This document shows, in pieces, positions 32,782 through 61,521 of a stretch of DNA of 64,000 nucleotides. The notes under the pieces were generated by a model that saw only the letters and a program-made list of their open reading frames with translations, had not been told where the DNA came from and ran no database searches. How positions within the stretch are numbered: position 1 is the first letter of the stretch; each line of letters starts with the position of its first letter. The DNA lies in assembly GCF_012933505.1 (NCBI RefSeq), contig NZ_JABBNB010000038.1, positions 1-64,000 of the forward strand, in the 5' to 3' direction. This DNA is from Gordonia asplenii (GTDB taxonomy: Bacteria > Actinomycetota > Actinomycetes > Mycobacteriales > Mycobacteriaceae). A program made the position numbers and the translations under genes.

Positions 32782-33564
32782 CTACGCGGGCGGGTCGTCC
32801 GCCACCGACTTGCGCAGCCGACGCAACGTGCTGGACAGCAGCCGCGACACATGCATCTGGGAGATTCCCACTTCGGCGGCGATCTCGCTCTGCGACTTCG
32901 ACTCGAAGAAGCGCAGCGCGATGATCCTTCGCTCGCGCTCGGGCAACTGCTCCATCGCTGGACGCAGCGTCACGAAGTCGTCGATTCGCAACATCTCCCG
33001 ATCTTCTCCGCCCAGGGTGTCTTTCAGGGTTCGCCCGTCGTCGTCGGCGGCGGCATTCGGTGAATCGATCGACGACGCCGAGTGCGCCGACCGCGCCAGC
33101 AGCCCGTCGATCACGTCGGAGACCGGCATGTCCAGATGCGTGGCGAGCTCGCTGGGCTTGGGTGAGCGCCCCAATTGCTGGATGAGTTCGTCGGTTCCGC
33201 GAGCGATGGCCGCGGCGATGTCTTTGGCCCGACGGTTGACGCGGACCGACCATGTGTTGTCGCGGAAATGACGCCGGACCTCGCCCATCACCGTCGGCAC
33301 CGCGAAGGACAGGAACTCGGCGCCGACCGTCGGGTCGAAGCGATCGACCGCGTTGACGACGCCGACCCGCGCCACCTGGAGGAGGTCGTCGAACGGCTCT
33401 CCCCGGCCGGCGAAACGTCGGGCGATGTGCTCGGCGAGTGGAAGGCAGCGTTCGATCGCCTCGTCTCGCAGGTCGGCTCGGTCTGTGGCATCGTCGACGG
33501 CCGCGGCTTTCGCGAGCAAGGCCGCCACGACGGCGTAATCGTCGGCTTGTGGGGTGTTTGGCAC
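32782..33564 (-). CDS. sigF: SigF-type alternative sigma factor (SigB/F/G family)
   Basis: A 260-residue sigma-70 group 3 factor. Region 2 has CLPLAEHIARRFAGRGEPFD then DLLQVARVGVVNAVDRFDP and FAVPTVMGEVRRHFRDNTWS. Region 3 follows, and region 4 has LPERERRIIALRFFESKSQS then EIAAEVGISQMHVSRLLSST. It is close to mycobacterial SigF in order and length. The frame runs open far into rsbW, but GTG 33564 gives the right N-terminus. It lies 8 bp after the anti-sigma gene, as in usfX-sigF. It probably directs the promoters listed here with GTTT-N-GGGTA. Confidence 0.93.
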   Translation of the reverse strand: MPNTPQADDYAVVAALLAKAAAVDDATDRADLRDEAIERCLPLAEHIARRFAGRGEPFDDLLQVARVGVVNAVDRFDPTVGAEFLSFAVPTVMGEVRRHFRDNTWSVRVNRRAKDIAAAIARGTDELIQQLGRSPKPSELATHLDMPVSDVIDGLLARSAHSASSIDSPNAAADDDGRTLKDTLGGEDREMLRIDDFVTLRPAMEQLPERERRIIALRFFESKSQSEIAAEVGISQMHVSRLLSSTLRRLRKSVADDPPA

Positions 33565-33572
33565 TGGCGCCG

Positions 33573-33992
33573 TCAGTCTCTGACCGTCGTAAGCGTTATC
33601 CGCGCCTCGCGGCCGCGGGCGCCCTGGGCGTACGCGACGCTTACGTCGTCGGCGACGCATTCGATCACGTACCAGCCGAAACTCGTCACATCCACCATCG
33701 AGTCCCCCACCGCACAACAGACCTCGATCTGGACACGCTGTGGCCCAGTGGTGACGACCACGTGCAACGACGCCGCCTCGGAGTCGGCAAGAGCGATCAG
33801 TTCGGTGCACGATTCATCCACGCCGACTTTCAAGTCGGCGACGGTGTCGAGCCCGAAGTCGTCGGTGAGCAATACGTTCTCCACGAGTCCCCGCACGATG
33901 GGGAGTCTGTCGACCCGGGCCGGCACCGTCAGTTCGACGACGCTGACGATCGTGTCGGTGGCTTCTGCGGTTGCGCTGTTCAGGTTCTCCAT
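33573..33992 (-). CDS. rsbW: RsbW-type anti-sigma factor
   Basis: A 139-residue GHKL ATPase-like anti-sigma factor. LTVPARVDRLPIVRGLVENV is the N-terminal helix. LKVGVDESCTELIALADSEA carries the N-box with ESC in place of the usual EACTN. The G-box area is degenerate: SFGWYVIECVADDVSV. It resembles UsfX/RsbW of mycobacteria, which bind SigF and are released by STAS proteins. The following sigF starts 8 bp later, and a SigF-type promoter precedes it, giving autoregulation. Kinase activity is doubtful because the ATP lid is not clear. Confidence 0.88.
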   Translation of the reverse strand: MENLNSATAEATDTIVSVVELTVPARVDRLPIVRGLVENVLLTDDFGLDTVADLKVGVDESCTELIALADSEAASLHVVVTTGPQRVQIEVCCAVGDSMVDVTSFGWYVIECVADDVSVAYAQGARGREARITLTTVRD

Positions 33993-34057: not shown

Positions 34058-34197
34058 GTGGCGCGGTGAAAGTCGTCTCAGCGGTCCGCCAGACCCTGAC
34101 ACCACCAGTCGGCGGCGGTTCGACGATGGTAACGCCTGATAACTTCGATCTGTCGCGCATCGACACGACACGACCGAATGGAGAGGTGACTTTACCC

Positions 34198-35640
34198 GTG
34201 AATTCCCCGGGCGGGGCGGTCGACGATCATCCCCAAGCAGCGGTGGCCGTTCTCTGCGGCGCAGGCATCGTCGTCGCGTTGATGCAGACGATCATCGTGC
34301 CGCTGATTCCGCAGCTGCCGTCGATGCTGCACGCCGCACCCGACAACACCACGTGGGCCCTGACCATCACCCTGCTCGTCGGCGCGGTGATCACTCCTAT
34401 CGCCGGGCGGCTCGGCGACATGTACGGCAAACGCCGCATGCTGTTGGGCAGCATGGCGACGCTGCTGATCGGATCTGCGACGTGTGCACTGTCGTCGTCG
34501 TTGCCGATGTTCCTGATCGGCCGTGCGTTTCAGGGGCTCGGATTCGGCACGATCGCACTGGGGATCAGCGTGATGCGCGACATCGTGCCGCCGAACCGCC
34601 TCGGGTCGGCGGTCGGCACGATGAGCGCGTCGCTCGGTGTCGGTGGTGCGCTCGGACTGCCGTTCGCGGCGGTGATCGCCCAGCATCTCAGCTGGCAGGC
34701 GTTGTTCTGGATCTGCGCGGCCGCGGGGGCGCTGGGCGGTGTGGGGATCCTCGCGTACGTCCCCGAGACGCCGTCGCGGGCCGGTGGACGATTCGACGTC
34801 GCCGGTGCGCTCGGACTGGCAGCGATGCTGACCTGTCTGCTGCTCGCGCTGTCGAAGGGCGCGTCGTGGGGGTGGGCGTCGCCGACGACGCTCGGCATGT
34901 TCGGCGCATTCGCGGTGATCGCCGTCGGATGGTGGATCGTCGAGCGGCGCAGCGCCAACGCACTGATCGACCTCGACGTCGCGCTGAGCCGCCCGGTGCT
35001 GCTGACCAATATCGCTTCTGTCGCAATCGGATTCGCGTTCTATTCGATGCAGTTGATCCCCATTCAGCTGTTGATGGCCCCGGCGTCGAGCCCCAACGGT
35101 CTCGGACTGGACATGCTGATGGCGAGTCTGGTGCTCGCACCCAGCGGCATCTGCATGTTTCTGTTCTCCCACGTGAGCGCCCGGCTGAACGTGATGTTCG
35201 GCCCGCGGACGTCGCTGGGGATCGGCGCGGTGGTGATCGGCGCGGGGTACGTGGTGTTCATCGTCGCCGTCGCCGGGTCGTGGGAGATGGCGTGGTGGAT
35301 GATGCTCGTGGTGTCGTTGCTGATCGGCGCGGGCCTGGGCATCGCGTATTCGGCGATGCCCGCGCTGATCATGCGGGCGGTGCGCGTCGAACGGACCGGC
35401 GAGGCCAACGGCTTGAATGCGTTGATGCGTATCGTCGGGACATCGTCGTCGGCCGCGGTGACCGGCATGATTCTGTCGGCGTCGATGGTCGGGGTGGCCA
35501 CACCGCAGGGCGCGCTGTCGGTGCCGAGCGAGTCGGGTTATCTGTGGGCCAGCGGCATCTCCCTGGTCGCTTCTGCGGCAGCGGTCGCGCTGGCTCTGGC
35601 GATTCCCGCGCCCCGCGCATTTCGGATCAGTCCCGCCTAG
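34198..35640 (+). CDS. MFS transporter (14-helix DHA2 type)
   Basis: A 480-residue membrane exporter. After a soluble start MNSPGGAVDDHPQAA the first helix is VALMQTIIVPLIPQLPSML. Motif A appears as AGRLGDMYGKRRMLLGS, and GAFQG-like GRAFQGLGFGTIALGISVMR follows. About 14 helices continue to the end. GTG 34198 has GGAGAGG upstream; an in-frame ATG at 34126 would add 24 residues (VTPDNFDLSRIDTTRP). It is divergent from rsbW. Substrate unknown. It is not obviously part of the catabolic operon to its right. Confidence 0.87.
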   Translation: MNSPGGAVDDHPQAAVAVLCGAGIVVALMQTIIVPLIPQLPSMLHAAPDNTTWALTITLLVGAVITPIAGRLGDMYGKRRMLLGSMATLLIGSATCALSSSLPMFLIGRAFQGLGFGTIALGISVMRDIVPPNRLGSAVGTMSASLGVGGALGLPFAAVIAQHLSWQALFWICAAAGALGGVGILAYVPETPSRAGGRFDVAGALGLAAMLTCLLLALSKGASWGWASPTTLGMFGAFAVIAVGWWIVERRSANALIDLDVALSRPVLLTNIASVAIGFAFYSMQLIPIQLLMAPASSPNGLGLDMLMASLVLAPSGICMFLFSHVSARLNVMFGPRTSLGIGAVVIGAGYVVFIVAVAGSWEMAWWMMLVVSLLIGAGLGIAYSAMPALIMRAVRVERTGEANGLNALMRIVGTSSSAAVTGMILSASMVGVATPQGALSVPSESGYLWASGISLVASAAAVALALAIPAPRAFRISPA

Positions 35641-35711
35641 CGGGTTCTGCTGACGGAGCGTCGACGAGGATGGAAGATGGCTTCGAGGACCATCCGACGT
35701 TTGGAGTTTCC

Positions 35712-36323
35712 ATGACCGACTTGACCATCGACCCCGCCAAGACCGCACTCGTCCTCATCGAGTTCCAGAACGAATTCACCTCTCCCGGAGGTGTTCTACA
35801 CGACGCCGTGGCCGGTGTCATGGACAGTACCGGGATGCTCGACAAGACGGTCGCGCTCGCGGCGAAAGCCCGCGCGGCCGGCGTCACCGTGATGCACGCT
35901 CCGATCACTTTCGCCCCCGGCTACGGCGAATTGACCCGCCATCCGTACGGAATTCTCAAGGGCGTCGTCGACGGCAACGCCTTCGTCAAGGGATCATGGG
36001 GCGCCGCCATCGTCGACGCGCTCACCCCCGCCGACGGCGACATCCTGATCGAAGGCAAACGCGGCCTGGACACCTTTGCGAGCACCAACCTCGACTTCAT
36101 CTTGCGCAGCAAGGGAATCGACACAATCATCCTCGGCGGATTCCTGACAAACTGTTGCGTCGAGTCGACGATGCGCACCGGCTACGAGAACGGTTTCCGG
36201 GTGATCACGCTGTCCGACTGCACCGCGGCGACATCGGCCGAGGAGCACGACAACGCCATCAAGTACGACTACCCGATGTTCTCGACTCCACTCACCGCCG
36301 CGGAGGTCGACGCGGCTCTGTGA
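35712..36323 (+). CDS. Isochorismatase-family cysteine hydrolase
   Basis: A 203-residue alpha/beta hydrolase of the isochorismatase-like (nicotinamidase) fold. Lys116 is in LIEGKRGLD, and the nucleophile is the second Cys of GGFLTNCCVESTMRTG (Cys149). The usual catalytic Asp of the N-terminal D-x-Q motif is Glu17 here (LIEFQNEF). Such a Glu is seen in some subfamilies, so the enzyme may be active on an amide or N-carbamoyl substrate that I cannot name. ATG 35712 has TTGGAG upstream. It is 71 bp after the MFS gene on the same strand. Confidence 0.85.
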   Translation: MTDLTIDPAKTALVLIEFQNEFTSPGGVLHDAVAGVMDSTGMLDKTVALAAKARAAGVTVMHAPITFAPGYGELTRHPYGILKGVVDGNAFVKGSWGAAIVDALTPADGDILIEGKRGLDTFASTNLDFILRSKGIDTIILGGFLTNCCVESTMRTGYENGFRVITLSDCTAATSAEEHDNAIKYDYPMFSTPLTAAEVDAAL

Positions 36324-36440: not shown

Positions 36441-37385
36441 TCACACGGTGTCGATGTAGGCGCTCAGCTCACGGCCGGGAGGTGGGCTGTCGACGATCAG
36501 CTTCTTGCTGCGCAGAACAGTGCGGGCGGTGACCAAATAGTTGTGTATTAATGGCCCCACGGCATCCTTGCGGTATGCCAGGGCAAGCGGTACCGCGATT
36601 CGCGGCGTACGCAATGGACGGTAGGTGACCCCGTTCATGCGAAGGTGCCGGATCGACTCAGGTGCCAAGGACACGCCCAGCCCCGCGGCTACCATCGCGA
36701 CAAGAGTTGCTGTCTCCGCGACCTGTTGCCCGATCGTCGGCGTGAATCCCTCTTGTGCGCATGCCGCGATCAGTGTGTCGTACATGGTGGACGGAGCGCA
36801 GTACCCGATGAAAGTCTCGTCGGCGAGGTCACGCAGGTCGATCGCGGTGTAGGTGGCCAGCGGATGCTGAACAGGGAGAACCACCATCAGCGGTTCGTTT
36901 CTCAGGAGTTCGACCACGATTTCCGGTGACTTCACCGGCGGGCGGAGAAGGCCGACGGACAAGGTTCCGTCGAGAAGCGCATCGACCTGAGCCGGACTGA
37001 GCATCTCACTGCGGAGGGTGAGCTCGACGAATGGATTGCGCTCACGATGGGCGCGAACGAGATTGGGCATCAAGTCGTACGTCGCCGAGCCGATGAAGCC
37101 TAGCGAGAGCGAGCCCAGTTCGCCGCGGTCGGCTTTCCGGGCGGATTCCATCGCGTCGTCGCTGTCGGCAAGCAGCCGGACGCAGCGCTCATAGAACACG
37201 CGACCGGCCTCTGTGAGCGCGATCGTACGCGTCGTGCGCTCGAGCAACGTCACCCCCAGTTCGCGTTCGAGTTTGCGGATCTGATGTGAGACCGGCGACT
37301 GAGCGACCGACAGTCGCTCCGCGGCGCGAGTGAAGCTGCCCTCGTCGACGACTGTCACGAAATACCTGATATGCCGCAGTTCCAT
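36441..37385 (-). CDS. LysR family regulator of the catabolic operon
   Basis: A 314-residue LysR regulator. The HTH is MELRHIRYFVTVVDEGSFTR then AAERLSVAQSPVSHQIRKLE. The co-inducer domain contains ELGSLSLGFIGSATYDLMPN and a typical EEPLVVVLP-like NEPLMVVLPVQHPLA. This is close to the CatR/ClcR/BenM subgroup that responds to muconates. It is divergent from the operon starting at 37560, and the 174-bp intergenic region should carry its sites. A muconate or lactone inducer is the reasonable guess but is not shown by the sequence. Confidence 0.9.
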   Translation of the reverse strand: MELRHIRYFVTVVDEGSFTRAAERLSVAQSPVSHQIRKLERELGVTLLERTTRTIALTEAGRVFYERCVRLLADSDDAMESARKADRGELGSLSLGFIGSATYDLMPNLVRAHRERNPFVELTLRSEMLSPAQVDALLDGTLSVGLLRPPVKSPEIVVELLRNEPLMVVLPVQHPLATYTAIDLRDLADETFIGYCAPSTMYDTLIAACAQEGFTPTIGQQVAETATLVAMVAAGLGVSLAPESIRHLRMNGVTYRPLRTPRIAVPLALAYRKDAVGPLIHNYLVTARTVLRSKKLIVDSPPPGRELSAYIDTV

Positions 37386-37559
37386 ACACCAAGCCTAGAT
37401 ACAGACAAAAAAGAGGTCAATAACGGAACATACAGGTGTTGGACATCTAGATAACGCGATCCTTACGCTCGTTGCAGAGACATCGATCACAGCTCGAACG
37501 CCTGGAAATACACATCACAACCCCTTCAGGCCGCCGCCGATCATCCGACAGGAGACAAC
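37386..37559. promoter_or_regulatory. Divergent LysR control region
   Basis: This 174-bp A+T-richer region separates the LysR gene from the catabolic operon. CTAGATA occurs twice (37396-37402 and 37448-37454), 52 bp or about five helical turns apart, which fits a LysR tetramer bending DNA. A further ATAACGGAACATACAG stretch lies between them. The operon ribosome site ACAGGAG is at 37549-37555. The exact T-N11-A box could not be fixed. Confidence 0.45.
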
Positions 37560-38084
37560 ATGATCACCGCCTTCCCGACCATCGAGCGCCGCCAAGCTCC
37601 CGACAACCAGGTCACTCCAGAGACGGTCCGTCGCGCCATGGGCCGGGTTCCCACTTCCGTCGCGGTCGTGACGGCCTCGCACGGGGGTCGACCGATCGGC
37701 ATGACCATCGGATCGCTGACGTCGGTGTCACTCGACCCACCACTGGTCGCGTTCTTCGCGTTTTCCGGGTCATCCACGTTCGCCGAGCTTCGCGAATGCG
37801 AGCAGTTCTGCATCAACGTGCTCGCCGAGGATCAGGCGGAAATCTGCTACGGATTCGCGCGAGTCGACGGTGAGAAGTTCGAGCTCGGCGAGTGGAAGAA
37901 CCACGACGGAATCCCACGCATCACCGACGCTGTCGCCACGGTGTTGTGCGAAAACGCAGGAGTCTTCGCCGCAGGCGATCACCTCGGGATGCTGGGTCGG
38001 GTCACCGACGTCGAGTTCAGCGACAACCGCCCGCTTCTCTACTACCGGGGAAAGACTTCCCAGCTACACACGCACGCCGCCTGA
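37560..38084 (+). CDS. Flavin reductase (two-component monooxygenase partner), copy 1
   Basis: A 174-residue flavin reductase of the HpaC/flavin_reduct family: AMGRVPTSVAVVTASHGGRP, then GMTIGSLTSVSLDPPLVAFF for flavin binding and FCINVLAEDQAEICYGFARV. The GDHLGMLGRVTDVEFSDNRP segment ends with LLYYRGKTSQL. It supplies reduced FMN to the following LLM monooxygenase, 32 bp downstream. The ATG has ACAGGAG. It is first in the operon. A second copy at 40252 is very similar, a tandem duplication with the monooxygenase and hydrolase between. Confidence 0.92.
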   Translation: MITAFPTIERRQAPDNQVTPETVRRAMGRVPTSVAVVTASHGGRPIGMTIGSLTSVSLDPPLVAFFAFSGSSTFAELRECEQFCINVLAEDQAEICYGFARVDGEKFELGEWKNHDGIPRITDAVATVLCENAGVFAAGDHLGMLGRVTDVEFSDNRPLLYYRGKTSQLHTHAA

Positions 38085-38116
38085 GTACCAATACACCATC
38101 CATCCAAGGAGTATCC

Positions 38117-39388
38117 GTGAAAGTCAATCTGTTCTTGCAGGCGCCATATCGCTATCTGCCCGACGATTTCGAAACCAAGCACGAATCGGTGTGCGATGTC
38201 CCCTACTCACTCGTGACACGCGATGGAATGTACTCGTCGATCCGAGACTTCATGGACGAGCTGATGCTTGGCGCTCGAAGCGGATATGACGGTGTCGCCA
38301 TAACCGAGCACGGTCAAAGTAGCTATGACATGGTGCCGAACCCAGACCTGATCGCAAGTAGTCTGGCGTATATGACCGAGGCCGAAGGCCTCGAGGTGGC
38401 CATATATCCAATGGGGCGCTCTCTCGGCAAGTCGCGGGAACCGCTACGCGCCGCTGAGGAATACGCCACGATCGATGTGATGAGTGGCGGCCGCCTGGTC
38501 GCCGGCCTCACCGTCGGACTGAGCTACGACGCGAACATCAACAACGAAATCCCGCCGATCGAGATACGCCCTCGCTTCGATGAGAATCTGGAGTTGGTGC
38601 TGCGGTCATGGCGCGAGCAGGAACCGTTTGCGTGGAACGGCCGGTTCTCACAGTATCCGATGGTCAATATGTGGCCCCGCCCCCTGCAGGACGACGTACC
38701 CGTGTGGATTACTGGAATCGGCAATCCGCGGACCATGCGAATGTGCTTTGATCGAGGCTTCGGATTCAACTATCTGAGCTGGTTCGGCGCAAAGGTAACC
38801 GGAAAGCGGATCTTCGACCGCATGTGGGAGCAGGCCGACGAGGCCGGCGTCGCCCGCAATCCCAATCGCATCGGTTTTCTGCAGACCATTGCCGTGTCCG
38901 AGACGGACGAGCGTGCCGAGATCGAATACGGACCGCACGCCGAATACGCCTTCCGCAAAGGGCTCGGTTCTATCCCGATCGAGAAGCTGGGCCTACCCGG
39001 CGCAATCGACATCAATGGCGTCAAGGCGTTGATCAAGGACCCCGGTGACTTCGGGCTCTACCACAAGATGCGCACTGTCACCTTCGCCGAACTGGTCGAC
39101 GCCGGTGTGATCGTCGTCGGCAGCCCCGATACCGTTGCCGAACAACTGATCTCCTTCTGCACCGAGTACGGGATCGGCAATCTGCACGCGATGCTCGGCT
39201 TCGGATCGCTGCCGCGAAACCTCGTCATGAAGAACATCCAATTGTTCGCCGAGGAAGTCCTTCCCCGGCTGCGTCCGCTGTGGACCGACACCGACTTCGA
39301 ACACCACTGGTGGCCGACTCGTCTCGGCGGCAAGCCGATCGCCTACCAGACCAAGGCCCAGACCACGGCAGGAGCGAGCGCGCGATGA
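38117..39388 (+). CDS. LLM class flavin-dependent monooxygenase
   Basis: A 423-residue luciferase-like monooxygenase, longer than most F420 types. It starts VKVNLFLQAPYRYLPDDFET, has GARSGYDGVAITEHGQSSYD near 57-76, VMSGGRLVAGLTVGLSYDAN for the flavin barrel, and WPRPLQDDVPVWITGIGNPR. The C-terminal GSPDTVAEQLISFCTEYGIG is common in the FMNH2-type members. Flanking flavin reductases make it a two-component oxygenase. Such enzymes hydroxylate, open N-heterocycles or do Baeyer-Villiger oxidation. GTG 38117 has CAAGGAG. Its stop overlaps the hydrolase start (ATGA). Substrate unknown. Confidence 0.9.
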   Translation: MKVNLFLQAPYRYLPDDFETKHESVCDVPYSLVTRDGMYSSIRDFMDELMLGARSGYDGVAITEHGQSSYDMVPNPDLIASSLAYMTEAEGLEVAIYPMGRSLGKSREPLRAAEEYATIDVMSGGRLVAGLTVGLSYDANINNEIPPIEIRPRFDENLELVLRSWREQEPFAWNGRFSQYPMVNMWPRPLQDDVPVWITGIGNPRTMRMCFDRGFGFNYLSWFGAKVTGKRIFDRMWEQADEAGVARNPNRIGFLQTIAVSETDERAEIEYGPHAEYAFRKGLGSIPIEKLGLPGAIDINGVKALIKDPGDFGLYHKMRTVTFAELVDAGVIVVGSPDTVAEQLISFCTEYGIGNLHAMLGFGSLPRNLVMKNIQLFAEEVLPRLRPLWTDTDFEHHWWPTRLGGKPIAYQTKAQTTAGASAR

Positions 39389-40191
39389 ACACCACGACCC
39401 TTTCGATCACCGAGCAGACCGTCGACTTGTGGGGCGGCCGGTTGAGCATCACGGTCAAGGTGGCCGGCGCGGGCGCACCGCTGCTCTACCTTCACCCGGC
39501 GGCCGGCCTGACGTGGGATCCGTTCTTGACCCACCTCACAACGCATTACACGGTCTATGCGCCTGAATTCCCGGGCACCAGCGAGGGCAACCCCTACGCG
39601 ATCCATACCATCGACACGCTCAGCGACATGGTTCTGGCCTACGAAGAACTGATCCGAACTCTCGGCCTCGACCATCCGGTCATCGTGGGGCAGTCGTTCG
39701 GCGGCATGCTCGCGGCCGAACTGGCCTCCACCTTCCACGCACTGCCGAACAGGTTGATCCTGCTCGATCCGATCGGACTCTGGCACGAAGGGGCTCCCAC
39801 CGCGAACTGGGTGGCGACACCTCCAGACCAGCTGCCCGCCTTGCTGTTTCACGACCCCGAGGGACCCGCCGCACAGGCGATGCTCGCGCCGACCGACGAT
39901 GTGGAGCAACTGCAAGCCGCGGCCGCGGCGATGGTGTGGGCGATGGGATGCACGGGGAAGTTCGCATGGCCGATCCCCGACCGTGGACTCCGTCACCGAC
40001 TCCACCGACTCGCTGTGCCCACCCTGATCATCTGGGGCCGTGACGACAAGCTGATCTCGGTCGAGTACGCCGAGCACTTCCACAAGCTCATTTCCGACAG
40101 TACCGTCACCATCATCAACGAGTGCGGCCACATCCCTCAAGTGGAGAAGTTCGACGAGACCGTCGAAGCCGTCGACAAATTCCTCATCTGA
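39385..40191 (+). CDS. Alpha/beta hydrolase
   Basis: A 268-residue alpha/beta hydrolase. The oxyanion region is LLYLHPAAGLTWDPFLTHL, and the nucleophile elbow is VIVGQSFGGMLAAELAS with Ser rather than Cys. The acidic residue is probably in LIIWGRDDKLISVEYAEHF, and the His is in INECGHIPQVEKFDE. The Ser nucleophile sets it apart from classical dienelactone hydrolases. Coupling to the LLM monooxygenase by ATGA suggests it cleaves the ester, lactone or enol product of that step. It may be a carbon-carbon or ester hydrolase; which one is open. Confidence 0.88.
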   Translation: MNTTTLSITEQTVDLWGGRLSITVKVAGAGAPLLYLHPAAGLTWDPFLTHLTTHYTVYAPEFPGTSEGNPYAIHTIDTLSDMVLAYEELIRTLGLDHPVIVGQSFGGMLAAELASTFHALPNRLILLDPIGLWHEGAPTANWVATPPDQLPALLFHDPEGPAAQAMLAPTDDVEQLQAAAAAMVWAMGCTGKFAWPIPDRGLRHRLHRLAVPTLIIWGRDDKLISVEYAEHFHKLISDSTVTIINECGHIPQVEKFDETVEAVDKFLI

Positions 40192-40251
40192 TTGACAGAT
40201 CCCATCCGAGTGTTCCGCACGACTCGGTAACACCGACCGCAGGAGATTGAG

Positions 40252-40794
40252 ATGGCACCGACGCATCATCCGACGTCGAGTTCCGACGCCGGCTCCCCAC
40301 GAACGCATATCGCGTCGATCGATTCCACGGTGATGCGCCGGGCCATGGGACGCGTTCCTACTTCGGTGGCCGTCGTCACCGCCCAGTGCGACGGAGAACC
40401 TATAGGCATGACTGTCGGATCGCTGACTCTGGTGTCTCTCGACCCACCGCTCGTCGCGTTCTTCGCCTTCGCGGGATCATCGACCTTTGCCCGAATCCGC
40501 GATTGTGAACGATTCTGCATCAACGTTCTCGCCGAGGATCAGCACGAAGTCTGTTTCGGGTTCGCCACCCTCGACGGCGCCAAGTTCGATGTCGGAGAAT
40601 GGGACTACCACGACGGCATTCCGGCTGTCCGGGGTGCGGTCACCACCGTGCTCTGCGAGCAGGACCACATATTCGAGACCGGCGATCATCTGGGGATGCT
40701 CGGCAAAGTCATGAATGTCGATTTCAGCGACAACCGGCCCCTCGTCTACTACCGCGGACAAACGTCACAACTAGACGACCAGTCGCTGCGCTAG
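40252..40794 (+). CDS. Flavin reductase, copy 2
   Basis: A 180-residue paralogue of the gene at 37560. Nearly every motif is shared: RAMGRVPTSVAVVTAQCDGE, then GMTVGSLTLVSLDPPLVAFF, FCINVLAEDQHEVCFGFATL and GDHLGMLGKVMNVDFSDNRP. The N-terminus MAPTHHPTSSSDAGSPRTHI differs. The ATG has CAGGAG 8 bp upstream. Either both feed the one LLM enzyme or each serves a different oxygenase, one perhaps outside the cluster. The duplication seems fairly recent, because divergence is mostly at the ends. Confidence 0.92.
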   Translation: MAPTHHPTSSSDAGSPRTHIASIDSTVMRRAMGRVPTSVAVVTAQCDGEPIGMTVGSLTLVSLDPPLVAFFAFAGSSTFARIRDCERFCINVLAEDQHEVCFGFATLDGAKFDVGEWDYHDGIPAVRGAVTTVLCEQDHIFETGDHLGMLGKVMNVDFSDNRPLVYYRGQTSQLDDQSLR

Positions 40795-40865
40795 TCGAGC
40801 TCGACGCCAACTGGCCCGGCATCGATTCAGTCGTCCGCAAACGCTACTCACCGAAAGGCCTACTC

Positions 40866-41684
40866 ATGTCTATCACCCACATATCTCCGGCCGTGCGAGG
40901 CCGACAACTTGTCGAACAGCTCGAACACCTACTGCAGGACTTCATCCGCAAGCAGCACGTGACCCATGACGAATATCGCGTGGCGACCGATCTCATCATC
41001 GATTCGATCGAGTGTGGAGAAAAGTCGTTGCTCTTCGATGTCTTCTTCGAGGCCGAAGCAACCGACGTGGCCAATATCGGGCGGGAGGTGAGTCCAGAAG
41101 CGATCGAGGGACCGTTCTATCTGCCTGGCGCACCGGTGTTGACCGGTCCGTTGAATGTCATGCCGCAACGGCCGCATGAAAAAGGAACGCCGCTGTATTT
41201 CCACGGCACGGTCCGCGACCCGGGCGGGAATCGTCTCGGTGGCATCGAACTGGATCTGTGGCACGCGGATGCCGATGGGCTCTACTCCAACATCCATCCG
41301 AACATCCCCGACTATAACCTGCGGGGCCGGTTCTATTCAGAGTCCGATGGTACCTACCAAGTTCTGTCGATCCTGCCGCCGCCGTACGAGATCCCCAAGA
41401 ACGGCCCGACGGGCACCGTTCTGCGCGCGCTCGAGCGGCACTTCTTCCGGCCCGCGCACCTACATGTGAAATTGCGGGATCCCGCAGGCGACTACGAGGA
41501 GATGACCAGTCAGCTTTACTTCGCCGGAGGCGAGTACGTCGAGAATGATGTGGCGCATGCCGTCCGCGACGGTTTGCTGATCACCCTGAAGAACATCGAT
41601 AACCTCGATCGGATCGCCGCGCTCGGCTTGGACCGGCCCTATATCGAGGCCGAATACGACTTCACACTCGCGCCGGCGTCCTGA
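40866..41684 (+). CDS. Intradiol ring-cleavage dioxygenase (catechol/chlorocatechol/hydroxyquinol 1,2-dioxygenase type)
   Basis: A 272-residue non-haem Fe(III) dioxygenase. An N-terminal helical linker (HLLQDFIRKQHVTHDEYRVA) is followed by AIEGPFYLPGAPVLTG. The Fe ligands are Tyr in DYNLRGRFYS and the His pair in RPAHLHVKLRD, with SILPPPYEIPKNGPTG near the pocket. These motifs are those of catechol/chlorocatechol dioxygenases that form cis,cis-muconates. Hydroxyquinol as substrate would give maleylacetate directly, but the muconate cycloisomerase next door argues for a catechol. ATG 40866 has GAAAGG upstream. Confidence 0.9.
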   Translation: MSITHISPAVRGRQLVEQLEHLLQDFIRKQHVTHDEYRVATDLIIDSIECGEKSLLFDVFFEAEATDVANIGREVSPEAIEGPFYLPGAPVLTGPLNVMPQRPHEKGTPLYFHGTVRDPGGNRLGGIELDLWHADADGLYSNIHPNIPDYNLRGRFYSESDGTYQVLSILPPPYEIPKNGPTGTVLRALERHFFRPAHLHVKLRDPAGDYEEMTSQLYFAGGEYVENDVAHAVRDGLLITLKNIDNLDRIAALGLDRPYIEAEYDFTLAPAS

Positions 41685-41697
41685 TCGAGCTGCAGTC

Positions 41698-42822
41698 ATG
41701 GACTCTTCGATCATCTCCGAGATCCGCACCACGATCGTCGACATCCCGATCCGACGTCCGCACAAGTTCGCGGTCCTCACCATCGACACACAGAGCTTGC
41801 TGTTGGTGTCGGTCGAAACCCGCGACGGCACAGTGGGTATCGGTGAGGGGGTCGTGCCCGGCGGGCCATGGTGGGGCGGCGAATCAATCGAGGGCATGAA
41901 GGCTCTCATCGACGGATACCTCACGCCGCTGCTAATCGGCGAAGACGCCCATCGTCCCAGCTTTCTCGCTCACCGTCTCGATCGCATGATCGGCGGCAGC
42001 GAGTTCGCAAAGGCCGCAGTGGAAATGGCGCTGTGGGATCTCAGCGGCAAAGCAGCCGGGATCCCCGTGCACCGACTGCTCGGTGGCGCACACCGAGACC
42101 GTCTCCCCGTCACGTGGGCGCTGGGTGCCGAAACTGCAGACGTGGTGATCGCGGAGGCGCGGGCCAAACTCGAACAGGGAAGCCATACTTCGTTCAAACT
42201 CAAGATGGGTGCCGGCGAGCCCGCTGCCGACGTGGCCCGAATAGCGGCGGTCGCGGCCGACCTGGCAGAGAAAGCACGACTGTCGGTTGACCTGAACGGT
42301 TCGTGGGACCTCCTAATCGCCGAACGCTATCTCCCCGAACTCACCGCGGCCGGCGTATCGCTGTTCGAGCAACCGGTGCCACGATGGGACGTGCCGGCAA
42401 TGTCGCGACTCGCCGAACTGCTGACCGCTCCGGTGATGGCCGACGAATCGCTGCGTTCACCGCAGGATGCCGCGCGCCTGTGTACGGCGCGCGCCGCGGA
42501 CATCCTCGCCGTCAAGATCCCCAAATGCGGAGGAATCACAAATGTGACGGCGATCGGTGCCGTCGCCGAATCCTTCGGCATCCAGTGCTTCGGCGGAACA
42601 ACCATCGAGTCGTCGATCGGGACAGCCGCCGCATTGCACACCTATTGCGCCATGCCGTCACTGGTGGCCGGCAGCGAGCTGTTCGGAACGCTGCTGCTCT
42701 GCGACGATCTCGTCGTGGAGCCGATCGGGCTCCGCGACGGACATCTCCACCTGCCCACCGGCCCGGGGTTCGGGGTCGAGCTCGACGAGCGGAAGGTGAA
42801 GCGCTATGCCCGCGCATCCTGA
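41698..42822 (+). CDS. Muconate cycloisomerase-like enolase-superfamily enzyme
   Basis: A 374-residue enolase-superfamily protein. The catalytic Lys pair is in SFKLKMGAGEP. The metal ligands are in LSVDLNGSW (Asp), SLFEQPV (Glu) and APVMADESL (Asp). The second base Lys is in ILAVKIPKCGG. FGGTTIESSIGTAAALHTYC near the C-terminus is like chloromuconate cycloisomerases. It should turn a muconate into a lactone and, for 3-chloro- or similar substrates, eliminate halide. ATG 41698 is 13 bp after the dioxygenase stop. Its end overlaps the cyclase start by 17 bp. Confidence 0.9.
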   Translation: MDSSIISEIRTTIVDIPIRRPHKFAVLTIDTQSLLLVSVETRDGTVGIGEGVVPGGPWWGGESIEGMKALIDGYLTPLLIGEDAHRPSFLAHRLDRMIGGSEFAKAAVEMALWDLSGKAAGIPVHRLLGGAHRDRLPVTWALGAETADVVIAEARAKLEQGSHTSFKLKMGAGEPAADVARIAAVAADLAEKARLSVDLNGSWDLLIAERYLPELTAAGVSLFEQPVPRWDVPAMSRLAELLTAPVMADESLRSPQDAARLCTARAADILAVKIPKCGGITNVTAIGAVAESFGIQCFGGTTIESSIGTAAALHTYCAMPSLVAGSELFGTLLLCDDLVVEPIGLRDGHLHLPTGPGFGVELDERKVKRYARAS

Positions 42823-43858
42823 ACATTTCCGCACCGAAGACGACCGGAGGATCAGGCTGATTGATGACTACCCCGTCTACCGAGAACTATTGGCACGCAA
42901 CGATGCTCCACCCGGTTCGAGCTGGGGTGTGTTCGGCGACGATGATCAACTCGGCACCTTGAACTTCCTCGTGTTGGCGGACCTCGCCGACGCTGCTCGG
43001 ACGGTGCGGGCGGGCCGTGCGTATTCGCTCAACCTCCGCTCGGACGCAATCACATCTTCACTGGCACCGACCAGAGAGCCGTTCGTTCACAACATCTTTC
43101 AACGAACACCGTTTCATCGCGACGAATGGCTGGACCGCTTCTATCTGCAATACGCGACACAGATCGATGGCCTGCGGCATATCGGTCACCCCGACTACGG
43201 GTTCTATAACGGCGCTGACGGCACCGATTTTCAGCCGGGAACCGAGCGCCTCGGCATCCACCACTTCACCGCGCTGCCCATTGCGGGACGTGCGGTGGTT
43301 GCCGACATCGACGGGTATCTGCAATCGATCGGAGGTCATCTCGATCACGATGCGGGACAACCGGTTGAACTAGAGACCCTGTGCGCGACGCTGGAACATC
43401 AAGGCAGCACGATCAAGCCGGGAGACATCGTCCTAGTCCGGTTCGGATGGCTCGGCCACTATCGCGACGACAGCTCTGCCGACTGGCGAAAGAATCTGGT
43501 AGTCAAGCAGTTCCATACCGGGATGCGACAGGACCGCGACCTGCTCGAGTGGCTATGGGACCATCGCGTCGCGATGGTTGCGGCCGACAACTTCGCATTC
43601 GAATGCTGGCCTGCCGGCCCCGACAGCCCCTTCTTCGCAGAGGCCGACCGTTCGGGCGTTGCCGACGACCCGCACGCCGGGATCATGCATCGGGAACTGA
43701 TCGCGCTCCTAGGCATGCCGATAGGAGAGCTGTGGGACCTCGATCGACTGGCCGCGGACTGTGCTGCCGACGGCCGCTACGAGTGCCTGGTCACGGTCTC
43801 GCCGCTGCCGGTAGTAGGTGGCGTCGGATCCCCCGCGAACGCGATCGCACTGCGATGA
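42806..43858 (+). CDS. Cyclase-family (Pfam cyclase / kynurenine-formamidase-like) metal hydrolase
   Basis: A 350-residue protein of the cyclase family. GSSWGVFGDDDQLGTLNFLV is an N-terminal signature. The metal-binding area has GIHHFTALPIAGRAVVADID and GHLDHDAGQPVELETLCATL, and later KPGDIVLVRFGWLGHYRDD. The family hydrolyses formamides or lactones with Zn or Mn. The trans-dienelactone hydrolase of Pseudomonas reinekei is, as I recall, a zinc enzyme of a similar type. Here, between cycloisomerase and maleylacetate reductase, it sits where lactone hydrolysis is needed. Overlaps on both sides (17 bp and 4 bp) couple it. Confidence 0.82.
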   Translation: MPAHPEHFRTEDDRRIRLIDDYPVYRELLARNDAPPGSSWGVFGDDDQLGTLNFLVLADLADAARTVRAGRAYSLNLRSDAITSSLAPTREPFVHNIFQRTPFHRDEWLDRFYLQYATQIDGLRHIGHPDYGFYNGADGTDFQPGTERLGIHHFTALPIAGRAVVADIDGYLQSIGGHLDHDAGQPVELETLCATLEHQGSTIKPGDIVLVRFGWLGHYRDDSSADWRKNLVVKQFHTGMRQDRDLLEWLWDHRVAMVAADNFAFECWPAGPDSPFFAEADRSGVADDPHAGIMHRELIALLGMPIGELWDLDRLAADCAADGRYECLVTVSPLPVVGGVGSPANAIALR

Positions 43859-44925
43859 CGGTTTCCAACTTCAGTTACCAGGCGCTACCCATGCGAGTGG
43901 CCTTCGGCGACGGTGCCGTCTCGCACCTGCCCGACGAGTTGGATCGCGCCGGTCACATGCGCGCGTTGGTGCTATGCACTCCGGGACAGACGCGTATCGC
44001 GCAGATCGCCGTGGCCGCGCTCGGGGTGCGGAGCGCCGGGGTGTTCGACGCCGCGCGTATGCACGTTCCTGTCGAAACCGTCTCGGCCGCAATCAAGTAC
44101 GCGTCAGAGGTCGATGCCGACAGTTGTGTGGCGATCGGCGGGGGCTCATCGATCGGACTCGGCAAGGCCATCGCCCTGGAATCCGGGCTCCAGATCATCG
44201 CGGTACCGACGACCTACGCCGGTTCCGAGATGACACCGATCTGGGGGCTCACCCGTAATGGACGCAAACAGACCGGCCGTGACTCCGTCGTTCTGCCGAC
44301 GTCGGTAGTCTACGACCCACAGCTCACGACTTCCCTCACAAGTGAGATCTCGGCCGCCAGCGGACTCAACGCGATCGCTCATGCGGTCGAAGCCCTCTAT
44401 GCGCCGGACGCGTCACCGGTCATCTCGCTCATGGCGGAAGAGGGCGTCCGCGCCCTCGCCGGTGCCCTGCCGGCGATCGTCGACAACGGTAGCGACCGGG
44501 TAGCTCGACGCGCGGCTCTATACGGGGCGTGGCTGTGCGGCGCGTGTCTGGGGGCAACGACAATGTCGCTGCATCATAAGCTGTGCCACGTACTCGGTGG
44601 CTCGCTCAATCTGCCCCATGCCCAAACGCACGCGATCGTCCTACCATATGTCTTGGCCTACAACGAAGTTCACACTCCCGCGGCGAAGGCGGCCTTACAA
44701 CGCGCACTCGGCGTGGACTACGCGCCGTCGGTAGCGCTTCGAGAAATCGTCACCAGACTTCCGATCCCGGGGTCGTTGTCAGCTCTCGGTGTCCGATCAG
44801 AACAACTGCAGTCCGTCATCGAACAAGTGCTGGCAAGTCCTTACGCCAATCCCACGCCCGTGGAAATCGAGGGTCTGCGCGACATCCTCCACCGTGCGCT
44901 ACGCGGCGCCGCGGTGTCAGAATGA
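43855..44925 (+). CDS. Maleylacetate reductase
   Basis: A 356-residue iron-containing-ADH-type protein. GGGSSIGLGKAIALESGLQI and VPTTYAGSEMTPIWGLT are the NAD(P)H and maleylacetate-specific loops. LPTSVVYDPQLTTSL and SGLNAIAHAVEALYAPDASP continue the domain, and MSLHHKLCHVLGGSLNLPHA has the metal-site His residues. It reduces maleylacetate (and often 2-chloromaleylacetate) to 3-oxoadipate. The ATG overlaps the cyclase stop by 4 bp. It is the last operon gene. Beta-ketoadipate thiolase and CoA transferase genes are not in the window. Confidence 0.93.
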   Translation: MTVSNFSYQALPMRVAFGDGAVSHLPDELDRAGHMRALVLCTPGQTRIAQIAVAALGVRSAGVFDAARMHVPVETVSAAIKYASEVDADSCVAIGGGSSIGLGKAIALESGLQIIAVPTTYAGSEMTPIWGLTRNGRKQTGRDSVVLPTSVVYDPQLTTSLTSEISAASGLNAIAHAVEALYAPDASPVISLMAEEGVRALAGALPAIVDNGSDRVARRAALYGAWLCGACLGATTMSLHHKLCHVLGGSLNLPHAQTHAIVLPYVLAYNEVHTPAAKAALQRALGVDYAPSVALREIVTRLPIPGSLSALGVRSEQLQSVIEQVLASPYANPTPVEIEGLRDILHRALRGAAVSE

Positions 44926-53675: not shown

Positions 53676-57632
<3,957 letters not shown>

Positions 57633-57677
57633 TAGTTACCTTTCAGTGTCTCTTCTAGTCAGATTCAGGTCTAAGGC

Positions 57678-60600
57678 TTAGTTGGCGAGGTCGTCGACGG
57701 TGGCCGACTCGTTGCGCGACAGGTTGATGCCGAGGTTGGCCGCTGCGCGCTCCAGGTCCTCGTCGTCGCTGTCGGCCATCGTGATGGCGGCACCGTCGGA
57801 GCTGAGCACCTCGACGTTCAGGCACAGGGACTGAAGTTCCTTCAGCAACACCTTGAACGACTCGGGGATGCCCGGCTCGGGGATGTTCTCGCCCTTGACG
57901 ATGGCCTCGTAGACCTTCACGCGGCCGACGACGTCGTCGGACTTGATCGTCAACAGTTCCTGCAGGGTGTAGGCGGCACCGTAGGCCTGCATCGCCCAGC
58001 ACTCCATCTCACCGAAGCGCTGGCCACCGAACTGGGCCTTACCGCCGAGCGGCTGCTGGGTGATCATCGAGTACGGACCGGTCGAGCGAGCGTGGATCTT
58101 GTCGTCGACCAGGTGGTGCAGCTTGATGATGTACATGTAGCCGACCGACACCGGGTACGGGAACGGCTCGCCGGAGCGGCCGTCGAAAAGGGTGGCTTTG
58201 CCGTCGCCGTTGACCATCACTTCGCCGTCGCGGTTGGGCAGCGTCGAGGACAGCAGTCCGGTCAGCTCCTCCTCACGCGCGCCGTCGAACACCGGGGTGG
58301 CGGTGTTGGTGTCGGGCTCCGACGAGTACATGTCCTCCGGCAGCTTCGACGCCCAGTCCGGCACACCGGCTGCGACGTTGATGTTCCAGCCGGCCTTGGC
58401 GACCCATCCGAGATGGGTCTCCAGGATCTGGCCGATGTTCATACGACGCGGCACACCGTGGGTGTTCAGGATGATGTCGACCGGGGTGCCGTCGGGCAGG
58501 AACGGCATGTCCTCCTGCGGGAGGATCTTGCCGATGACACCCTTGTTGCCGTGCCGGCCGGCCAGCTTGTCGCCGTCCTGGATCTTGCGTTTCTGAGCGA
58601 CGTACACGCGCACGAGCTCGTTGACGCCGGGAGCCAGATCGTCGTCGTCGTCGCGGCTGAACACGCGCACACCGATGACCTTGCCGGTCTCGCCGTGCGG
58701 CACCTTGAGCGACGTGTCGCGAACCTCGCGGGCCTTCTCACCGAAGATGGCACGCAGCAGGCGCTCCTCGGGGGTCAGCTCGGTCTCGCCCTTCGGGGTG
58801 ACCTTTCCGACCAGGATGTCGCCGTCGCGGACCTCGGCACCGATGCGCACGATGCCGCGCTCGTCGAGGTCGGCGAGGACCTCGTCGGAGACGTTCGGGA
58901 TGTCCCGGGTGATCTCCTCGGCACCGAGCTTGGTGTCGCGGGCGTCGATCTCGTGCTCTTCGATGTGGATCGAGGTGAGCACGTCCTCTTCCACGAGCCG
59001 CTGGCTCAGGATGATGGCGTCCTCGTAGTTGTGGCCCTCCCACGGCATGATCGCGACGAGCAGGTTCTTGCCCAGCGCCATCTCGCCGTTCTCGGTGCAC
59101 GGACCGTCGGCGAGTACCTGACCGGCCTCGACGCGCTGTCCCTCGTCGACGATCGGACGCTGGTTGGCGCACGTTCCATGGTTGGAGCGGGCGAACTTGC
59201 GCATCCGGAAGGTCTCGCGGCTGCCGTCGTCGTCCATGACGGTGATGTAGTCGGCCGAGACCTCTTCCACCACACCGGTCTTGGTCGAGACGATCACGTC
59301 GCCGGCGTCGACGGCGGCACGCAGTTCCATGCCGGTACCGACCAGCGGCGATTCGCTGCGCACCAGCGGCACCGCCTGACGCTGCATGTTCGCGCCCATC
59401 AGGGCACGGTTGGCGTCGTCGTGCTCGAGGAACGGAATCATCGCGGTCGCGACCGACACCATCTGGCGCGGGCTGACGTCGATGTACTGGACCTCTTCGG
59501 AGGAGACGAACTCCACCTCGGAGCCCTTCTTACGCACCAGGACGCGCTCGTCGGTGATGTGACCGTCGGCGTCGTAGTTGGTGTTGGCCTGGCCGATGAG
59601 GAAACGGTCCTCTTCGTCGGCGGTCATGTACTCGATCTGATCGGTGACGACACCGTCGACGACCTTGCGGTAGGGCGTCTCGATGAAGCCGAACGGGTTG
59701 ACCCGCGCGTACACCGAGAGGGCACCGATCAGGCCGATGTTCGGGCCTTCCGGAGTCTCGATGGGGCACATGCGGCCGTAGTGGCTGGGGTGCACGTCGC
59801 GGACCTCGAGCCCGGCACGCTCACGGCTCAGACCACCGGGGCCCAGAGCGGACAGACGACGCTTGTGCGTCAGACCCGACAGCGGGTTGTTCTGATCCAT
59901 GAACTGCGAGAGCTGGCTGGTGCCGAAGAACTCCTTGATCGCCGCCACGACGGGACGGATGTTGATCAAGGTCTGCGGGGTGATCGCCTCGACGTCCTGG
60001 GTGGTCATGCGCTCACGCACGACACGCTCCATACGCGAGAGACCCACGCGGATCTGGTTCTGGATCAGCTCGCCGACGGTACGCAGACGACGGTTGCCGA
60101 AGTGGTCGATATCGTCGGCCTCGACCGGAACCGACACACCGCCCGGCCCCACCATCTCGGTGAGCAGGTTCGGATCGGCTTCATGCAGCCGGACCAGGTA
60201 CTCCACCGTGCTGATGATGTCCTCGGTGGTCAGCACCGACGGACCGTTCATCGGGTTGGCGGTCAGGCCCAGCTTCTTGTTGATCTTGTAGCGACCGACG
60301 CGGGCCAGGTCGTAGCGCTTCTCCTTGAAGAACAGGTTCTCCAGCAGCGCCTCGGCCGACTCCTTGGTCGGGGGCTCGCCCGGACGCAGCTTGCGGTAGA
60401 CCTCCAGCAGCGCTTCGTCCTGGTTGCTGGTGTTGTCCTTCTCCAGCGTCGACATCATGATCTCGGAGAAGCCGAAGCGTTCGGTGATCTCCTCGGTGGT
60501 CATGCCGAGCGCCTTGAGCAGCACGGTGACCGGCTGACGGCGCTTGCGGTCGATGCGCACACCGACGGTGTCGCGCTTGTCGACGTCGAACTCCAGCCAC

Positions 60601-61169
60601 GCGCCGCGGCCCGGGATGACCTTGACCGAATGCAGGGTCTTCTCGGTGGCCTTGTCGATGGTGGCGTCGAAGTACACGCCGGGGCTACGGACCAGCTGGC
60701 TCACGACGACACGCTCGGTGCCGTTGATGATGAAGCTGCCCTTGTCGGTCATGATCGGGAAGTCGCCCATGAACACGGTCTGCGACTTGATCTCGCCGGT
60801 GTTGTTGTTGATGAACTCGGCGGTGACGAACAGCGGAGCCGCGTACGTCATGTCCTTGTCCTTGCACTCCTCGACCGAGGCCTTGACCTCGTCGAAGCGC
60901 GGATCGGAGAACGACAGCGACATCGACTCGGAGAAGTCCTCGATCGGGGACAGTTCGTGCAGGATGTCTTCGAGACCACCGGTGGGGTTGTCGACGCCGC
61001 GCTCGGCGGCCTTGTTCTTCCAATCGGCCGAACCGATCAGCCACTGGAACGAATCCAACTGCAGGTCAAGAAGACCGGGAACAGGAAGCGGCTCGCTGAT
61101 CTTCGCGAACGATTTGCGGGTGGGCGCTCCGGGAATGGTGGCTGAGGTGGACTGGCGGTCGAGTGCCAA
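57678..61169 (-). CDS. rpoB: RNA polymerase beta subunit
   Basis: A 1163-residue beta subunit starting [20 protein letters not shown]. Landmarks are [20 protein letters not shown], the rifampicin region [20 protein letters not shown] then [20 protein letters not shown], and [20 protein letters not shown]. The Asp, His and Ser positions linked to rifampicin resistance are wild type. TTG 61169 corresponds to the M. tuberculosis start and has GGAAGGA 7 bp upstream. An upstream TTG at 61184 (MEGRILA) is the alternative used in some rhodococcal annotations. It is the first gene of rpoB-rpoC. Confidence 0.97.
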
Positions 61170-61521
61170 GATGCGTCCTTCCAAACACTATGGTGTCTAC
61201 TGCTGCGAACGTCTCGCTCGTAGCTCATCAGTTTGGCTGGTGGCAACCTGCAAGGCGAAACACAATTCACAGCACACAAGACAGTGGCCGGAAGTGACGG
61301 ATCGATAGTTTGGACAGGAGGCAGCCAGCGCAACGTCCAACAGTATCAGAAAGTAGACGGACGCTCAAGTCCCGTCGGAATTTGATTTTCACCCCGGCTG
61401 GCGGCCTCGAGGGTGTGCGATGGGCGACCCGACACATTCGCTGGCAATAGCGTGGCCCCCCGAAGCCCCGGCGTCAAGCGATACGCGCAATTTTGTTCGA
61501 AATTGCCTGCTTCACCACACC
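61170..61521. other. rpoB upstream region, no gene seen
   Basis: These 352 bp between the Mce-associated gene stop and rpoB hold no supported gene. The region should carry the rpoB promoters on the minus strand, but I could not fix a convincing -35/-10 pair. It is more A+T-rich than the flanking genes. One T-rich/A-rich pair, AATTTTG-TTCG-AAATT near 61490-61505, forms a weak hairpin just after the Mce-associated stop and could end that transcript. Confidence 0.5.

Follow-up and report, generated by a model that had tools for sequence, protein, structure and literature searches.

Candidate two-module operon for the breakdown of 2-hydroxyaryl ketones or aldehydes in Gordonia asplenii

Which kind of aromatic compound would call for a luciferase-like monooxygenase (LLM), an alpha/beta hydrolase and a set of ring-cleavage genes ending in maleylacetate reductase, all within one operon? 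This question is raised by a nine-gene cluster at positions 36441-44925 of a 64,000-nucleotide stretch of Gordonia asplenii DNA (contig NZ_JABBNB010000038.1, positions 1 to 64,000; hereafter the window), in which a minus-strand LysR gene precedes eight co-directional plus-strand genes. Our answer, to which we give an even chance of being right, is a catabolic operon of two modules, whereby a 2-hydroxyaryl ketone or aldehyde would undergo Baeyer-Villiger oxidation and hydrolysis before entering a modified ortho route. The features of the locus are the following.

36441-37385, minus strand: LysR-type regulator, divergent from the operon (Pfam HTH_1 and LysR_substrate)
37436-37452, no strand assigned: candidate LysR operator GTGTTGGACATCTAGAT, containing T-N11-A (37437-37449)
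37560-38084, plus strand: FR1, flavin reductase, an additional copy ahead of LLM (PF01613)
38117-39388, plus strand: LLM, flavin-dependent monooxygenase, candidate type II Baeyer-Villiger enzyme (Bac_luciferase; GTG start)
39385-40191, plus strand: ABH, alpha/beta hydrolase, candidate aryl-ester hydrolase (PF12697/PF00561)
40252-40794, plus strand: FR2, flavin reductase, in the same slot as in Rhodococcus cassettes (PF01613)
40866-41684, plus strand: IDO, intradiol catechol dioxygenase (PF00775, Dioxygenase_C)
41698-42822, plus strand: MLE, muconate/chloromuconate cycloisomerase (MR_MLE; TIGR02534 above cut-off)
42806-43858, plus strand: CYC, cyclase-family metal hydrolase, candidate trans-dienelactone hydrolase (PF04199)
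43855-44925, plus strand: MAR, maleylacetate reductase (Fe-ADH; PDB matches)

Two modules and a proposed route

ATGA overlaps join LLM to ABH (39385-39388) and CYC to MAR (43855-43858), MLE and CYC overlap by 17 bases, and the gaps at the remaining four joints of the operon, namely FR1/LLM, ABH/FR2, FR2/IDO and IDO/MLE, measure 32, 60, 71 and 13 bases. These gene calls agree with the first-pass annotation, which had described a LysR gene divergent from an eight-gene operon with ATGA or longer overlaps, and Pfam and NCBIfam scans returned the families that it had named. By comparison with other loci, the cluster divides into an upper module (LysR, LLM, ABH and a flavin reductase) and a lower module (IDO, MLE, CYC and MAR). 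Since the genes of each half are linked in other genomes too, the cluster is more than a chance assembly, and it appears to be a hybrid of two modules that travel separately.

In the proposed route, a flavin reductase would supply reduced FMN to LLM, which would perform a type II Baeyer-Villiger insertion of oxygen beside the carbonyl of a 2-hydroxyaryl ketone or aldehyde. ABH would then split the aryl ester into a carboxylic acid and a catechol bearing a leaving substituent, IDO would cleave the ring to a substituted muconate, MLE would close the muconolactone, CYC would take the part of a dienelactone hydrolase and open the lactone, with loss of the substituent in the course of these lower steps, and MAR would lead to 3-oxoadipate. 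The leaving group is likely to be a halogen or an alkoxy group, and an example of a substrate for which all the operon's enzymes would be required is a methoxylated or chlorinated 2-hydroxyaryl ketone. If the route is correct, it would point to genes for the breakdown of aryl ketones with substituents, among them UV filters and quinone pollutants.

Ring cleavage and the leaving group

The family assignments of its four enzymes make it very probable that the lower half leads to maleylacetate by a modified ortho pathway. First, MLE scored 438.7 bits against the NCBIfam model TIGR02534 (muconate/chloromuconate cycloisomerase; cut-off 334.95), with the chloromuconate cycloisomerase 4m0x as its top PDB match (348 bits) and the muconate lactonizing enzyme 3i4k at 345. 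Its residues K167, K169, D198, E224, D249 and K273, like the HxH motif present in IDO and the GQSFG and GH motifs present in ABH, are what we take to be catalytic residues. Second, the top PDB matches of IDO are catechol and chlorocatechol 1,2-dioxygenases, and its score for the chlorocatechol 1,2-dioxygenase equivalog TIGR02465, 218.1 bits, lies below the cut-off of 359.25. Third, MAR matches two PDB entries named maleylacetate reductase, 3w5s (5e-95) and 3hl0 (3.1e-94); its strongest match, 3jzd (9.6e-109), is named merely an iron-containing alcohol dehydrogenase, and no cut-off was reached by MAR in the NCBIfam scan.

Fourth, CYC, with 51.6 bits for PF04199 (cut-off 23.1), carries the motif QxxxQxDxxxH as Q115-x3-Q119-x-D121-x3-H125, invariant in all four aligned lower-module cyclases. 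The same motif occurs in the aligned stretch of its sole PDB match, 5ibz, an entry labelled as an uncharacterized protein that we infer to be MGS0169. Both the Pseudomonas reinekei MT1 trans-dienelactone hydrolase and the metal-dependent esterase MGS0169 are reported to carry QxxxQxDxxxH, whereas KynB formamidase and isatin hydrolase have histidine at both glutamine positions, HxxxHxDxxxH (PMC5341072). The MT1 enzyme is described as zinc-dependent and sensitive to EDTA (PMC4108320). Among the eight genes of the operon we found no DLH-type gene for an alpha/beta-fold dienelactone hydrolase. ABH had been considered for this role and was rejected, as it trails LLM also at loci in which neither a cycloisomerase nor MAR was detected.

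The chlorocatechol modified ortho pathway (tfdCDEF/clc) consists of an intradiol dioxygenase, a cycloisomerase, a lactone hydrolase and maleylacetate reductase. The window operon shares these four, including a TIGR02534 cycloisomerase, but has a PF04199 metal hydrolase in place of the alpha/beta-fold dienelactone hydrolase, and a different upper module. In the 4-/5-chlorosalicylate pathway of P. reinekei MT1, a 4-substituted catechol is reportedly taken to maleylacetate via a zinc-dependent PF04199 trans-dienelactone hydrolase; this pathway, which we liken to the window by description rather than by sequence alignment, differs in that its upper half begins from salicylates and has no LLM/hydrolase pair. 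The view of the first-pass annotation that the ring-cleavage half suits catechols with a leaving group is thus supported by the cycloisomerase, MAR and the trans-dienelactone hydrolase motif of CYC. If so, PF04199 trans-dienelactone hydrolases would have a second natural context in this operon.

Linkage of the lower genes was also found elsewhere. IDO, MLE and CYC occur together in three other genomes: Rhodococcus sp. USK13 and Caballeronia sp. SBC2, both with MAR, and a third one (G306) without MAR within the 19.9 kb read. IDO is 67% identical in USK13 and 58% identical in Caballeronia, with CYC homologues nearby in both. The USK13 cluster, on pUSK13_1, resembles the window in its dioxygenase, cycloisomerase, cyclase and MAR, but has an IclR-type regulator and, as upper half, a Rieske-type ring-hydroxylating dioxygenase with a dehydrogenase and a reductase. 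The Caballeronia cluster, on pSBC2-3, shares not only these four enzymes with the window but also a flavin reductase, LLM and ABH, and differs in gene order, in a LuxR-type regulator and in lower identities (29-67%). The slot of CYC varies, being third in the window (IDO-MLE-CYC-MAR) and second in Caballeronia (IDO-CYC-MLE-MAR). In Streptomyces aidingensis, where the order is dioxygenase, dienelactone-hydrolase-like protein, cycloisomerase and MAR, with no match to CYC, the second slot is held by the dienelactone-hydrolase-like gene; we so call its product from a GFCLAG stretch that we presume to be diagnostic, its NCBIfam match being a weak one to a hydrolase family. Generic CYC relatives are widespread, 145 of the order's 397 genomes having one at E 1e-20 or better, and therefore only relatives of at least 60% identity and Caballeronia are informative on the module; another relative, 33% identical, is found in the genome itself, and two homologues at 48-49% identity (L134 and L135) have no other gene of the query set beside them. 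As a side observation, the USK13 lower module also lies beside an HsaA-like flavin monooxygenase (by score), another upper route (L130, 7961-18312).

Could the lower half instead process ordinary catechols, with CYC acting on some other lactone or amide and MAR being incidental? Some cyclase-family proteins are indeed kynurenine formamidases or isatin hydrolases, and the closest LLM relatives adjoin plain catA. Nevertheless, the CYC motif is of the trans-dienelactone hydrolase type and not that of formamidases or isatin hydrolase, the IDO, MLE and CYC genes recur together as described, and the only PF02426 (catC, muconolactone isomerase) match of the genome is on contig C43, away from the cluster. 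We therefore find this explanation improbable. As C43 also carries catA-like and catB-like (33%) genes, plain catechol does not need the window cluster, and a plain catechol pathway was set aside as its role. Contig C40 holds yet another dioxygenase with a MAR (57%), and together these make the window cluster a third, separate route.

The upper pair and its substrate

For the upper module we collected 47 loci of the LLM family, namely 7 of 379 matching plasmid records, two genome stretches and the best 38 of 80 loci, the latter kept out of 464 confirmed relatives in a scan of genome records. LLM is 38-90% identical to that of the window across these loci, which include near kin (five from Rhodococcus, five from Defluviicoccus and four from Amycolatopsis), so that counts are not independent. 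ABH is adjacent to LLM in 45 of the 47, and a flavin reductase lies within 4.5 kb in 26. A ring-cleavage gene was present within 8 kb in 21 loci (seven intradiol catechol, two hydroxyquinol and twelve extradiol type), a count affected by the many locus windows shortened by contig ends and by one locus (L023) scored as a miss with its dioxygenase just past 8 kb. Among 42 distant LLM loci from other phyla and classes (L068-L109; 29-39% identity), ABH was adjacent in 36, and none had a ring-cleavage gene within 8 kb by the same queries, which came from the family's own loci and could miss distant dioxygenases. The LLM-ABH pair is therefore older than its aromatic link, and linkage to ring cleavage marks the branch of the window.

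These associations with catechol-cleaving genes of several types support the earlier proposal that LLM and the hydrolase act ahead of ring cleavage; as to a substituted catechol as their product, the nearest LLMs adjoin plain catA, and the substituent is therefore deduced solely from the lower half. If correct, this would give an LLM/hydrolase family that is so far poorly described (the 47 loci collected are from Actinomycetota and Pseudomonadota) a testable role as a catechol-forming pair, linked to ring cleavage of the ortho, meta and hydroxyquinol types.

The closest relatives are found in Rhodococcus plasmid cassettes of the form LysR/LLM-ABH-FR-catA (pNAPH, pNit and plasmids of BX2 and LH-B3), with which the window shares 89-90% identity in LLM, 81-82% in ABH, 77-78% in the divergent LysR and 75-76% in FR2. 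In a tree from which the partial sequences of L052, L063 and L065 were left out, the window LLM clusters with these catA-linked LLMs with support of 100/100. The cassettes differ in their plain catA and in a single reductase, placed after ABH in the four annotated ones; no cycloisomerase, cyclase or MAR was found nearby, and their records give no pathway. Since they carry one reductase in that position, FR1, which with FR2 flanks LLM and ABH and shows 73% identity with FR2 across 147 residues, seems to be a duplicate, which suggests local duplication. Judged by these comparisons, the operon is a combination of a Rhodococcus-type upper cassette and a USK13-type lower module.

As for chemistry, the predicted model and fold matches of LLM show a luciferase-like fold, with separate flavin reductases encoded by FR1 and FR2, and fold ranking puts luciferase and the diketocamphane Baeyer-Villiger monooxygenase (BVMO) nearer. 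PDB matches of ABH are weak, to meta-cleavage-product hydrolases and esterases. One alternative keeps the lower half as proposed but has LLM replace a ring substituent directly, by oxidative dehalogenation, desulfonation or other ipso-attack, with ABH cleaving a substrate ester or amide either before or after this step. Both the fold ranking and the tie of ABH to LLM in family and distant loci alike, which suits an obligate rather than an optional hydrolytic second step, speak against it, and we consider it unlikely.

Within the Baeyer-Villiger reading, the aldehyde half deserves separate weighing: a 2-hydroxybenzaldehyde of the salicylaldehyde type would undergo a luciferase-like Dakin oxidation to an aryl formate, from which ABH would release formate and a catechol. 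No aldehyde-specific gene is present in the window cluster, and integrase or transposase genes surround three of the Rhodococcus cassettes, so that the linkage on pNAPH may be fortuitous; this version is, in our judgement, quite unlikely.

A further possibility is that LLM, ABH and flavin reductase act like the pyrimidine Rut system and open an N-heterocycle, the ring-cleavage genes serving a separate aromatic part. The enzyme classes match RutA, RutD and RutF, and a cysteine hydrolase similar to RutB (ISO, 35712-36323) adjoins the cluster. In Defluviicoccus (L054, 8818-14511; L055, 2821-8514), moreover, an isochorismatase-like gene and genes for an ABC transporter, identified by eye, come after LLM-ABH, with no ring-cleavage gene found, and the pair may have a different use there. 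Yet the scores fall far below the family cut-offs (53 against 254.75 bits for RutF, 38.6 against 238.5 for RutD and 96.1 against 377.95 for RutB), and a RutA match is absent among the families reported. Furthermore, ISO is convergent with LysR and occurs at 83-85% identity in three other genomes of the genus (G007, G047 and G019) that lack the LLM family, their best LLM E-values being 3e-12 or weaker. We regard a Rut-like role as very improbable; on the same occurrence, ISO and the MFS gene (34126-36323 together) were set aside as pathway parts. Of the substrate classes first put forward, namely an aromatic, a heterocycle or an aryl ketone, the evidence favours an aryl ketone or aldehyde.

A literature search for substrate and gene order gave one close precedent. 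In the anthraquinone pathway of Sphingobium sp. AntQ-1, a luciferase-like monooxygenase gene is contiguous with an alpha/beta hydrolase gene, the pair is induced by anthraquinone, Baeyer-Villiger oxidation and hydrolysis are proposed for it, and catechol lies downstream (PMC9836352). As described there, AntQ-1 differs in its scattered genes, its plain catechol routes and the assignment of catechol formation to a further pair that includes a type I BVMO, the likeness being one of description and not of protein comparison. No characterised cluster with identical gene order was found in the open-access literature, subscription papers being mostly outside this scope. The arrangement, which the first-pass annotation matched to no described pathway, thus still has no characterised match, but it is less singular than it seemed, as Caballeronia sp. 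SBC2 has both halves in another order.

Returning to the two-module reading, it is tempting to speculate on a more specific form, which we hold only tentatively. The operon would by itself form a complete route for 2-hydroxyaryl ketones whose leaving group is para, such as 2-hydroxy-4-methoxy- or 4-chloro-benzophenones and acetophenones. A type II Baeyer-Villiger enzyme and an esterase would free the substituted catechol, and a trans-dienelactone hydrolase of the zinc type would remove the leaving group on the way toward maleylacetate. If true, type II BVMOs would be general catechol-forming catabolic enzymes, and not a peculiarity of camphor.

Regulation, origin and genome context

The block GTGTTGGACATCTAGAT in the LysR/FR1 spacer is 17 bases long and identical in the window and three aligned Rhodococcus cassettes, and it contains T-N11-A, which we take to be a LysR box. 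It is a candidate operator; a repeat search found no inverted repeat of at least 7 in the spacer. The LysR protein probably senses a pathway intermediate.

GC content at third codon positions (GC3) is 0.71-0.83 in all nine genes, lower than in both neighbours measured (MFS, 0.85; ISO, 0.84). Of 397 genomes sampled across the order, 3 have the LLM family at E 1e-110, and of 59 in the genus, 2 have it with an identity of at least 60%; the genome itself is included in both counts. Low GC3 and rarity together suggest lateral gain, and the operon was probably acquired in this way. No empty site could be shown in relatives: in the genomes matching both, homologues of ISO and DNA polymerase IV lie far apart or on separate contigs. 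Genes for the RNA polymerase beta-prime and beta subunits (53676-61184, minus strand) lie about 9 kb downstream of the cluster, which therefore appears to be chromosomal.

Elsewhere in the genome, contig C68 carries a second LLM-ABH-FR set (L027, 7975-14945; LLM 62-63% identical) whose neighbours are an extradiol dioxygenase and a hydrolase of the meta-cleavage type, a layout that recurs in another locus of the genus (L028), in Tsukamurella, in Antrihabitans and at four Amycolatopsis loci. Upstream of the cluster, at 32782-33992, a sigma-70 family open reading frame overlaps an anti-sigma-like HATPase frame, the HATPase match lying just below the Pfam cut-off.

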